NCBI RefSeq assembly: GCF_002846575.1
Contig: NZ_PJND01000010.1
Location: 1-64,000 of the forward strand
Origin: Flavobacterium lindanitolerans
GTDB lineage: Bacteria > Bacteroidota > Bacteroidia > Flavobacteriales > Flavobacteriaceae
Direction of reading: 5' to 3'
Length of the DNA: 64,000 bases
Under the pieces are notes generated by a model. The model was not told where the DNA came from. It saw nothing but the letters and a program-made list of their open reading frames with translations, and did no database searches. How positions within the stretch are numbered: position 1 is the first letter of the stretch; each line of letters opens with the position of its first letter. This document shows, piece by piece, positions 1-6,000 of this stretch. The position numbers and the translations under genes are program-made.

Positions 1-3000
1 GTAAAATCCATAGGGAATGGCGTGCCGGGATGCTGGGAAACGTAGTCGTCGATGTTAAGGTCTGCGGTGCTGCCTACCGTGGCCCCGCTGCCGTCGGTCC
101 AGACATAGGTGCCCGATCCCGAAGGGGTGGCCTTAAGCCAAAGCGTCTGCCCGGTGCATTCCCTGGCTATCGAAACCTCGGGACCTTCGGAAACCGTTAC
201 CGTGAAGCTGCCACTACCGCCAAGGCTGCACGCTGCCGCGTTCCCGTCTATATCGTAGGTCACAAGGTAGGTGCCAGGGGTACTCTGCGATAGCGAGATC
301 TCTCCAGTGCCCGTGTTGATGGACAGTCCGGCAGGCGCGCCGAAGCGACCTCCAGGGGTAAAGCCTGCCGAAAGGTTCGGCAACAGGTTAGCATCGTTCT
401 GGCAGACCGGCGTGTCGTAGGTAAAGCCAACCGTTGGCGTCGTGCCTGCATTGACCGTGATAGTCGCGGTATGTTCATCCCCGTCGGTACATGTACCTAT
501 GTTTTGCGCCAAGGTATATTTAATCTGGTGTGTTCCTACAGTAGCTCCGGCCAGATTAATTTCTCCAGTTGTTGGATTTACCGTAATCGTAGCAGAAGTA
601 AAAGTACCTCCCTGGGTGAATCCTGCCGGCAATACCGGTAAAGGATTCGTCCCTGAATTTGCACAAACATTCGTATAACTAAATGTTACTTGTGGAGTTT
701 GCAAAGCATTGATTGTAACATTTTCGGTATGGATTCCACCTGAGTTACAACCTGATTGTTCAACCTTATACGTAATCGTATAAACTCCGGCCGGGCTGCT
801 CCCCAAATTAATTTCTCCGGTTGTTGCATTAATAACCAAACCTCCGGTTGCCTCAAAAGTACCTCCCGTATAGAAGTCCTGAGCCAATGTAGGTAATGGA
901 TTTGTTCCTGCTTTGCAATAAGAAGGCTGGTAAGTAAATCCTGTTACCGGATTGATTCCATTTTCTAATACAATAGTTGCAGTAAATTGTCCATCATCAG
1001 TACAAGTTATGTTATCACCAACTAACGTATACGTAATTTGATGAGTGCCCGGAGTAACTCCAGCAAGGTTAATCTCTCCTGTTGTAGGGTTTATTGTAAG
1101 GGTATTAGAAGCAAATGACCCTCCGGAAGTAAATCCTGCTGGCAATACCGGCAAAGGATTCGTACCTGAATTTGTACAGGCATTAGTATAGCTAAATGCT
1201 ACTTGCGGAGTTTGCAAAGCATTGATTGTAATGCTTTCTGTATGGGTTCCTCCTACATTACAGCCTGATTGCGTAACAGTATATGTAATATCATATTCTC
1301 CGGCCGGGCTATTCGCCAAATCAATTTCTCCGGTTGTTGCATTAATAATTAAACCTCCGGTTGCTTCAAAAGTACCTCCTGTGTAGAAGTCCTGAGCCAG
1401 TGTTGGCAATGGATTAACTTCAGCCTTACAATACGAAGTCTGATAAGCAAATCCTGTTACAGGCACAATATTCTGGTCTATCTGAATCTGGAAAGTCTGA
1501 CTTCCTGCATTTATACATGCAGTTGCATTCGCGTCCAGATTATAGGTTATTGTATGAAGCCCGACAGTTGCCGTTGCCATATCTATTTCTCCAGTCTGTG
1601 CATTTACAGAAAGAGTCCCGGATGAAAATTCACCACCAGTAGTAAAGCCAGAAGGCAATTGCGGTAAAAGATTAGCATTGTTCGAACATACAGGAGTTTC
1701 GTAGGTAAAACCTACCGTTGGTGCCGTTCCTGAATTAATTGTGATGGTCACCTCATGGTTTCCGCCATCTATACATCCAACATTCCCTACAACATATTTT
1801 ACCGTATAGGTTCCTGCTGTACTTGCACTTAGGTCAATTTCTCCTGTTGTCGTATCAATTCCTAGTCCGTTTGGCGTCGCCTCAAAAGTTCCTCCTATTG
1901 CAAAGCCAGGATTTTTTGTGATTACCGGATTCGTTCCTAAAGTACAGTAAGTACCATTATCATAACTGAAGCCTACTTCTGCAGTAGTTCTTTCATTTAC
2001 TGTTACGGTTATTGCTACTCTAGGTCCTTCACAGCCGTTTACATCCACATTGCTTACGTAGTATGTTGTTGTTCCTACTGTAGTTGTTTCCAGAGTTGGA
2101 GCTGTTGTTGTTCCTGTTCCGCCTACTTCGTCTGTATACCATTTTAACGTATAGTTTTCTGTTGGTGTAGCTGCCAAAGGTTGTGCTACTGCGTTACGGC
2201 AGTATTCCACAGGAGTGACAACTGTTGGTACATCACTGAATCCGTTGTAAGTAACTGTTACGCTTTTCTCACAGTATCTTGTTTTCCATTTGAAAGTGTA
2301 TACCCCTGGTGTATTGAATCCTGAAATTGCTGTGGATTTGCTGTTCGGACTCGCAATAATCACTTGTGCCGGGTTGTTTTCGTCAGCTACCCATGTTCCA
2401 ACACCTTCTGCTTCAAGCTGCGTAGCTGTTTCATGGCATGCAAGTATAACAGGTTCTGTGTTTATGGCCGTATTGGCGACAATAGATACCGCATCCAAAA
2501 GATTACCTCCGGCATTGTCTTTCGATCTGAAAACAAAACGGGTTACGTTCTGTCCTGCAGGGACATTATAGGTTCCTTCATAGAAGTTCCATGTAAGTAT
2601 ACCCGGATGTTGTTCAAGCAATACGAATGGTCCCGAAGGTGGGCCTGCCAATAGTTCTAACGTAACGTTGCTGCCCCTTGTTGCATGGGCATAGCTGTAT
2701 TTGAACTGTGTAATCTCTGAACTGTCAAGATCCTGATAGATACCTCTCACATTGTCAAGTGTGGTCGGTGCAGGGTCAGGGGAAAGCGTTTGAACGACCT
2801 GTCCTCCTTCATAAGGCATGTAGCCGTCAATTCCTGTTGCATTTCCAAAGAAAAATTCGTCGTAAAGCGATGATGCCGTGTCTTCTATGGCATTGGTTCT
2901 CCAACCCGGAACTATATTCTGTGGAATGAAGTTACCCAATCCAAAATCTGCTTCCGGTCTTTCAAAACTGCCGTTCACAATATCTAAATTACAAAGATCC

Positions 3001-6000
3001 TGTGGCGTAGTAATACACACATCAAACGTACAGATATTTGGAGCCGTATCGTTCAGGGTCATCCTTACCTTATAGGTAGCTCCCGGTTCTACTTCAGCCC
3101 TATACGACATTACAATGGCATTATTGTATGTACAGGCTAGCTGTTCTAAAGATGTTCCATTGACTTTGTATAGTGTCAGGGTAATTTTTGGTGCCACCAC
3201 ATCTGGTGTATAGCCTTGCTGGTACCTTCCTTTTGCAGAGAAGTTACCCAATTCCAATACGTGTACTTTTGAAGCGGCAACAAATTCAAACCAGATGTCT
3301 CCATTGTTAACTCCTGTACAGGCCATAGCTTCGGTTGAAGCCGTTGCTCCTATAAAGCTTGCTTTGGTAGCAGGCTGCTCACAGGATGTGCCTGCATTTA
3401 CAGGTACCACCACTGCTTTGGAAGCATCGTCATTTCTAACAAATTTGTGAGGTCCCGACCAGTAGCTGGTGTTATTCGTGCCACAGACAGCCCTTACAAA
3501 GAATTCATAAGTTCCTGCTTTCAAATCTGCAAAATCAGAAGCCTGCGGCGTATAGGAATTAGTGCTTACAAGCGTTCCGGACTGTGGCAAGGTATTGTTA
3601 TCCATTGGCTGTACGGCTACTTCCCATTGGGTTTCACTGCCTCCTGCCGTCCAGGAAAGTACTCCCGTAGAGTTTACCGTTAAGTTGGTTGGTTGCGGAC
3701 AAGTAACCGGTCCGCATGTTGCTACTCCCGTATAAATTCTCGAGTCAGATAGTCCTATGCCTCCAATCCATACCTCATTTCCTGAGTCATCCTTAATTTG
3801 TACACGCGCAGTAGTAAACTGCCACTCATTTCCTGCATCATTCCATAACGAAAATTCCACTCCCGTACATAAGAATACCGTAAAATCTACCGGAGGAGGA
3901 ACCTGACCAAAAGGTCCGGATGGAAAGACCATACTTTGGACTATTACTCCGTTCTGTACCAGATTTATTCCACCACCAACTCCTGATGAAGTACCGCCAC
4001 TTAGGGTAATCGTATATTCACAAAGGTTTTCAAAACTGCATCTTGTAGTGAATTCAAATGGCCCTACCCATTCGCTGTCTTGTGAAGCGCTACAAACCGC
4101 CCTTACGTAATATTCGTATCGTATGGCAGGCGTAAGGCCCGTCACGGTGTATGGATTCGTTGTCGTATTGTGCAGGTATTGCGCATCGCCATCTCCAACA
4201 GGAGCAGGCAATTCTGCCGGCTGTACGTAAACGTCCCATGAAGTTTCTGTTCCGTTTGCATCCCATGAAATTTTGGCCGATGTATCGATAATATCAGTTA
4301 CTGCAAGATTATTAGGAACAGGGCATGTTGGTATGTCTTCTATGACTACCTTATCTATCACTAATAATTGTCCTCTATAACCCCATGCATTAGGAGTTTT
4401 TTGTGGGATATGCCAAGCTATATTGATATCTCCTGTAACACCTGCAGGAAGGTTGATTACTTTTTCCTTCCATTCCGAATTGTTCAAAGGCGGTACACTT
4501 TCATAACTGACATCATATAATATAGTTGTGAATTGACTAAGTTCATTTCCGTTTGTAGACAATTTTACTGTAAGATCTTCCTTGAAATCTTCGCCCCAAA
4601 GTACCCTGTAGTAGTAGCGCAGGCGCTGGCCTGGCCTTACGGTTATGGTTGGTGAAATCAACCAGTCGTCATTATTACCGTTAGAACCCGTAAATATCAT
4701 TGCCGCATGCTCCCCTTCGTATGGATTTAGCGTGTTATTCAGGTTCCATGCAAAAGTATCACTATTACGATTGACAACTCTCCAACATTCTTCTGATATG
4801 GATCCGGGATCGAATGTCTCAACAAACGGTGTCGTAAAGGCATTACATAATGTGGTGAATTTGAAAGGCCCTACCCATTGGCTCTGTTCTGAAGCACTGC
4901 AATAGGCTCTTACATAATATTCGTATTGTGTGTTTGGTTGTAGCATTGTCCCTGTAGCATAAGCCGTATTGGTGCTTGTCAGCTGGCCATTTCCGGTAGG
5001 GATTCCCGAACCTGCATTCTGTACCACGACCTGCCATTGGGTTTCCAGATATCCTTTGGTCCAGGACAGTACGGCCGAGGTTTGCGTAATATTAGCAGCC
5101 TTAAGTTCAGATGGATTCGGACATGCCGGAGCATCTTCAACCTTCACATCATCAATCTGTAAAACGGACGTACCTCCGGCTGTCGAAAAGGATGGCGGTA
5201 CCCTAAAGGCAATATAAACCGGTCCGTTGGCATTGATATAAAGTGATTTCTCAATAAAATCGGTATTGGTAAAATCCATCAGCGGCATGATGACGCTGAA
5301 GCTTGCCGGATTCCTATCTGTAGTAGACATCAGGACTTCCACCCCAAATCTAGGATTTGGGAACATAGCTCCCAAAGCTGCTCTATATTTGAATTTTAAG
5401 GTTTTTGTCCCTACTACATTGATAGCAGGAGAAATGAGCCAGTCGTTGTAGGACGCTGTAGGAAAAGGAAAAGTCCTGCCCTGAATTGCCGCAAACGTAG
5501 GATCTAAACGCCAAGTAGTTCCATCAGCATTCGCATCCGTAATGGTCCAACATGATCTGTGATTGTTCACATCTGCAGTATCAAAATTCTCATGGAAAGG
5601 CGTATCAAAAACACCACAAACCGTTGTAAAATAGAATGGTCCTACCCAATTGCTCTGCTGTGTGGACGAGCAGTAGGCTCTTACATAATATTCGTATTGG
5701 GTGGCATGGGTTAGCTGGTCTGCTGTATATTGAGGTGTATTGACAAGCACTCCGCTTCCTGTTGGAATACCTGTATCCTTGCGCTGTACTACAACCTGCC
5801 ATTGCGATTCCGTATCTCCTGCAGTCCATGACAATTGGGCTTGCGAGGTAGTAACATTGTTCGCCGCAAGTGCTAACGGGTCAGGACATGCCGGTTTGTC
5901 TTCAATAAACACATCGTCAATTGAGATTCTGGTTGCAGTATGCCCTGAGCCGGGAACGACAACCCATGCAATATTTACATTGCCTGTTATGTTCGCCGGA

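Follow-up and report, generated by a model that had tools for sequence, protein, structure and literature searches.

The closest described counterparts of the locus analyzed here are the T9SS type B adhesins (TIGR04131/PF13585) with sprF/porP (TIGR03519) and then an OmpA-family gene downstream. Among bacterial duplicates, concerted evolution is known from the tuf genes and the rRNA operons. GC-biased gene conversion in multi-copy genes is known from mammalian histones, and a biased-conversion hypothesis exists for bacteria. The GC bias of bacterial gene conversion is contested, because much of the evidence for it is a genome-wide correlation.

We analyzed a stretch of 64,000 nucleotides from Flavobacterium lindanitolerans (contig NZ_PJND01000010.1, hereafter the window), which begins inside a giant adhesin gene with a likeness to the SprB/RemA type. 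The orthologue of this gene in Flavobacterium microcysteis resembles the T9SS type B systems in domain plan, in sorting domain and in the order of the genes; unlike them, it has a 3' module that differs in base composition from the body. As with the tuf genes and rRNA operons, near-identity is confined to a module while the adhesin bodies diverge freely; here, unlike there, the module forms the constant end of cassettes whose adhesins are otherwise divergent, often with a GC shift. As in GC-biased conversion of multi-copy genes, homogenised copies are GC-richer at silent sites than single-copy relatives. Unlike the histone-type case, the pattern occurs in AT-rich bacteria, has edges within a gene and in tandem arrays, and is known here from sequence comparison. 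Within one gene, putatively converted and unconverted stretches meet at a sharp edge, against an AT-rich genomic background, and the pattern recurs in several lineages; the question of bias thus becomes directly testable.

A base composition switch within the adhesin gene

Bases 1-480 of the window have a GC content of 60.0% (70% at bases 61-120) and bases 481-600 of 43% (0.433), as a sequence-only reading had counted and our recount reproduced; the window mean is 38.2% (0.382). In the whole 64 kb, the 12 GC-richest 480-bp windows (step 20 bases) start at 1-221. That reading had also noted that the frame continues across the change and that the units on its two sides have the same plan with different codon use. 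Indeed, a single minus-strand ORF spans base ~480 (Table 1), and the unit of the GC-rich block is 52% identical in aa to one of the gene's AT-rich units (query residues 2-120 against residues 1473-1820).

The third-position GC (GC3) of the gene changes from 0.28 to 0.68, and the log-likelihood gain at the maximum-likelihood change point is 43.9, compared with at most 10.8 in 500 shuffles. GC is also raised at codon positions 1 and 2 of the tract, by less than GC3. Base 1 of the window is the end of contig C10 (G000:C10:1) of a draft genome of 15 contigs and the gene lies on the minus strand; the GC-rich block is therefore the 3' end of a truncated gene. By comparison with the F. microcysteis orthologue, the tract encodes the final Ig-like repeat together with the domain preceding the sorting domain. 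No type B sorting domain was found in the visible part of the window gene, whose 3' end lies past the contig cut, and the sorting domain of the orthologue maps beyond this cut.

Table 1. Coordinates of the adhesin gene and its parts in the window
Feature	Position	Strand
Giant T9SS-type adhesin gene, 2683 aa visible, cut by contig end	3..8051	-
GC-rich 3' tract, GC3 0.67-0.68, 91% identical to the C15 paralogue	3..488	-
GC3 change-point interval, best 488; high paralogue similarity ends at 492	461..533	no strand
AT-rich array repeat unit, copy 1, period 513 bp	511..810	-
AT-rich array repeat unit, copy 2, 77% identical to copy 1	1024..1323	-
Ig-like domain, CHU_C associated (PF19081), residues 1941-2019	1995..2231	-
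Choice-of-anchor J domain (NF038128), best of 4, residues 1076-1236	4344..4826	-

A paralogue with the same end

Contig C15 (7727 bp) of the same genome carries a second adhesin gene that is cut at the same place as the window gene; the first 34 bases of C10 are the first 34 of C15 and are found nowhere else in the readable genome. Bases 1-492 of the window and 1-489 of C15 are 91% identical, the identity of the next 240 bases is only 0.50-0.65, and the gene bodies are 83-85% alike in two long stretches. The C15 gene has a GC3 change point at its base 467 (interval 440-488). The pair thus shows the hallmark of concerted evolution, one tract more alike than its surroundings and bounded by sharp edges.

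The sequence-only reading had proposed recombination with a foreign homologue, in line with antigenic or adhesive variation. Recombination within the gene is supported, as the switch falls where high paralogue similarity ends; a foreign high-GC donor is not (see below). Antigenic variation finds no support either: homogenisation affects the constant secretion end, and the differences are in the adhesin body.

In our view, the GC-rich block is best explained, with a probability of about 0.6, by concerted evolution of a constant secretion module together with GC-biased gene conversion. The block would be the only part in sight of a 3' secretion module that sister adhesin cassettes may have in common and that consists of the last repeat, the type B sorting domain, sprF and ompA. 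Ectopic gene conversion would preserve the match of sorting domain, SprF and OmpA across cassettes, as the adhesin bodies diverge. Silent-site GC would climb in the converted stretch, and the rise would halt at the conversion edge near base 488, if heteroduplex mismatches were resolved in favour of G/C over A/T. The comparison supports a module that has probably been kept alike, a sharp edge and probable descent; the GC bias of conversion we infer from recurrence, and another force acting on repeats is conceivable.

Of the 41 differences between the two copies in the window's genome, F. microcysteis allows 34 to be polarised; 17 run from GC to AT and 6 from AT to GC. This lean is expected of raw, unconverted mutation, but it also fits a foreign piece drifting to AT. 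Where F. microcysteis differs from both own copies, these depart towards GC at 40 sites and towards AT at 25, the direction being unpolarised.

Judging by the gene order in F. microcysteis, the window gene would be followed by sprF and ompA, which would lie beyond the contig end; in the own genome, an OmpA gene end (GC3 0.76) is located upstream of the C15 gene. The 3' continuation of the C10 and C15 genes was not found in the readable contigs. Four short contigs (G000:C3-C6) read as N and might contain the missing continuation of the window gene. Contig C2 was ruled out as the continuation, because 95-bp overlaps tie it to the start of C12 and the end of C11, and so was the start of C8, which belongs with C9 (74 bp in common). 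It should be mentioned that C2 (L067, 1-4287) has a GC content of 60% over its entire length and that its single open frame, of 1428 aa, includes a type B sorting domain; the contig represents the 3' portion of another adhesin gene, and its start matches, by eye, the next adhesin gene of F. microcysteis. Assemblies break at these adhesin genes.

Orthologues and the search for a foreign donor

The orthologue of the window gene in F. microcysteis MaA-Y11 (G126) is 83% identical at the nucleotide level over 8980 bp. Its GC3 change point (L109:5548) corresponds to window base 488 in the alignment, and its GC-rich tract extends through the C-terminal type B sorting domain (TIGR04131) and the directly downstream sprF/porP (TIGR03519; GC3 0.69) and ompA (GC3 0.66). 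After ompA follows a second adhesin gene, which starts AT-rich and then itself becomes GC-rich; it corresponds, by eye, to the C12-C2 gene of the window's genome.

The block ends at a contig end, as would be expected if two strains had been joined at about base 480, which the sequence-only reading named as the main alternative. Since C15 also has the switch and F. microcysteis has it at the homologous base, an assembly join is rejected as extremely improbable; the contamination value of 0.03 also speaks against it.

The cassette of F. microcysteis is also present in Flavobacterium endophyticum (G349), with the gene order unchanged. Between these two species, aa identity is 91% for sprF, 85% for ompA and 75% and 87% for two flanking genes, which puts sprF and ompA within or above the flanking range; in the adhesin it is 69% in the N-terminal part and 54% in the tail. 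The OmpA tree places the two species as fully supported sister taxa inside a Flavobacterium group. High GC is not uniform among the close relatives, as had been considered, but graded: F. endophyticum is only moderately GC-rich (GC3 of sprF 0.40, of ompA 0.43), and the next orthologues (74% identity) are AT-rich (0.25-0.26).

Parsimony at four-fold sites of ompA (outgroups L185, L126) assigned 22 AT to GC changes and one GC to AT change uniquely to F. microcysteis, compared with four and three to F. endophyticum. At a control locus, the F. microcysteis counts (AT to GC against GC to AT) were 4:10, 2:7 or 1:5 depending on the outgroup, and 5:1 against the own copy. The ompA counts agree with a GC rise in F. 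microcysteis, but GC loss in F. endophyticum is also conceivable.

Such a loss is what one would expect if transfer from a high-GC relative had replaced the 3' end of the gene, perhaps together with sprF and ompA, in an ancestor shared with F. microcysteis, and GC had since fallen unevenly. The sharp boundary, the G/C-ending codons and the 17 to 6 lean of the own copies fit this scenario, as does the lower conservation of the tail, both between the two other species and between the window protein and F. microcysteis (72% in the tail, 80-90% in the body). Against it, ompA and sprF are placed as vertical descent predicts, both in the tree and in gene order, and their identities fit such descent.

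Searches with the tail protein in samples of each taxon (overlapping sets, with the own genome counted) revealed no closer GC-rich match in 40 relatives or in 299 genus, 397 family and 395 phylum genomes. In the 299 genus genomes, the best match after F. microcysteis (73%) was 51%. In the family sample, where the sequence-only reading had expected the donor lineage to appear, 11 genomes matched at E <= 1e-20 (own included), the others reaching only 37-40% by full-length match. Four genomes of the phylum sample matched at the same threshold: the own one, two of the genus and one of the family; this sole match outside the genus (38%) is also in the family sample. A plasmid search with the tail gave no match and a phage search gave one record, at 36%. 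Similarly, the F. microcysteis OmpA protein had nothing closer and GC-rich in 398 genus genomes, 397 family genomes and a scan of genome contigs.

Among the genomes sampled, the closest relatives are Flavobacterium species, AT-richer at 74% identity, and not members of a different, high-GC lineage. Together with the switches on the OmpA tree, the relation to copy number and the like behavior of arrays within other genes (see below), these results make transfer unlikely, though it is the least unlikely of the alternatives. The GC-rich block is most likely native rather than a foreign import, and composition-based detectors may flag such native tracts as foreign islands.

Copy number and silent-site GC in Flavobacteriaceae

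Mangrovimonas sp. ST2L15 has two cassettes in tandem whose near-identity is limited to the adhesin end, sprF and ompA; GC3 is ~0.6 in this part against 0.2 in the bodies. We therefore measured deltaGC3, the difference in GC3 between ompA and the upstream adhesin body (ompA minus body), across loci. In a first pass, the median was +0.125 for 14 loci with near-identical copies (93.6-100% at the nucleotide level), while the 62 loci taken as single had medians of 0.039 and 0.043 in two parts (p = 3e-5). The largest outlier among these "single" loci, in the complete genome G145, turned out to be one of five copies that are 98-100% alike, and G452 has four copies with ompA 98.5-99.5% alike and a GC3 of 0.73-0.74. 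Both were moved to the multi-copy set only after standing out; F. microcysteis was added to the singles and two identical rows (L188, L192) were removed, giving 16 loci against 60.

In this final set, the median deltaGC3 was +0.141 in the 16 multi-copy loci (chosen by near-equal scores among the matches listed, plus G145 and G452) and +0.041 in the 60 taken as single (Mann-Whitney p = 1e-5). Copies were checked by nucleotide search only in G126, G349, G332, G378, G568, G310, G145, G452 and G000; the other "singles" come from protein searches (best 3 candidates per genome), and some are single loci from named contigs. A deltaGC3 above 0.1 was found in 12/16 multi-copy loci and in 6/60 taken as single (Fisher p = 7.5e-7). 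Correlation with copy number was 0.51 (rho) overall and 0.60 inside the multi-copy set (p = 0.013). Across the family, homogenised tracts tend to be richer in silent-site GC than single-copy relatives.

On the OmpA tree, high deltaGC3 changes state at least 12 times; phylogenetically independent pairs gave averages of 5.2 in agreement, 0.0 in disagreement and 4.8 with no difference (median p 0.06). Raw GC3, taken without the local baseline in 14 multi-copy loci and 37 new singles, did not differ significantly (p = 0.12). Three multi-copy genomes were exceptions: G597 had no rise, G769 only +0.03 and G201 +0.06. The last 50 adhesin codons were at least 0.90 identical, with a far body of ~0.3-0.6, in 11 of 12 aligned copy pairs from 11 other genomes; in G597, the adhesin falls short of this.

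Cassettes at contig ends or with too short an upstream gene (G310, G773, G707, G300, G368, G110, G170; L193, L195, L208, L054, L300, L308) were excluded from the count, as were L123-L182 with their short flanks. The GC3 of excluded cassettes was 0.58 in G310, 0.49 and 0.41 in G773, 0.39 and 0.37 in G300, and 0.24 and 0.29 in G110.

The association between GC and homogenisation would also arise by the reverse route, if GC-rich stretches recombined more readily (through a stable heteroduplex or a hot-spot motif) and hence became homogenised. The G145 genome argues against this: of its five homogenised copies, the three measured (one over partial length) have an ompA GC3 of 0.60-0.63, and their 77%-identical relative is not GC-rich (0.34). 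Moreover, GC3 is strongly different in the F. endophyticum and F. microcysteis orthologues and the outgroups are AT-rich. We regard the reverse route as doubtful, slightly more so than transfer.

The five dispersed sprF-ompA copies of G145 (L322-L326) are 98-100% alike within one complete genome; in translation, two are without a long OmpA match and one has only a partial match, perhaps as a result of broken frames.

The high-GC ompA of F. microcysteis has only one assembled copy by nucleotide search. Another such case is G568 (C1:1794399; L251/L329), a one-contig genome in which an ompA with a GC3 of 0.54 and a GC-rich adhesin tail have no second near-identical copy. For both, an older duplicate has to be assumed if conversion is the explanation.

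Codon use

The tract encodes the secretion end of the protein and its first and second codon positions also rise in GC, as could be expected if selection on codons, mRNA or protein acted on a highly expressed constant module. Genes such as rpsA are of the highly expressed kind. At four-fold sites, C and G account for.37 and.30 in the GC-rich tract and for.01 and.05 in rpsA (named by NCBIfam) of the same genome; the codon use of the tract is thus unlike that of such a highly expressed gene, and translational selection was rejected as its cause. Other ompA genes in the same genomes are AT-richer, including the 77%-identical relative and another paralogue (0.28) in G145 and the gene at the C7 locus of the window's genome (0.33), and arrays in other genes show the GC rise too. 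Selection of this kind is improbable, more so than the reverse route.

Repeat arrays within other genes

Among 117 long ORFs in the DNA sampled, 11 arrays met our criteria, five of them from the window's genome, and 9/11 were GC-richer than their surroundings (p = 0.04). In nine long genes of the window's genome, similarity to other segments and GC3 were positively correlated in four (window, C15, C7 and C9), not significantly in four, and negatively in one (C8, rho -0.44). The array GC3 is 0.54 in the C7 gene, with 0.34 outside and edges where similarity stops, and 0.45 in the C9 gene, with 0.25 outside.

It can be hypothesized, at what we would call even odds, that strong GC-biased gene conversion operates in Flavobacteriaceae and leaves sharp-edged GC-rich islands at homogenised cassettes and tandem repeats; its strength would be set by copy number, and the adhesin secretion module would be its clearest natural experiment.

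The C7 gene (G000:C7:427053-442025) encodes 4991 aa and has its tandem array at about residues 3200-4400, where GC3 is 0.45-0.61, with ~0.28-0.36 in the neighbouring segments. On C9 (L077, 3-8021), the GC-rich array is composed of similar ~240-bp units, and its end is common to the start of C8.
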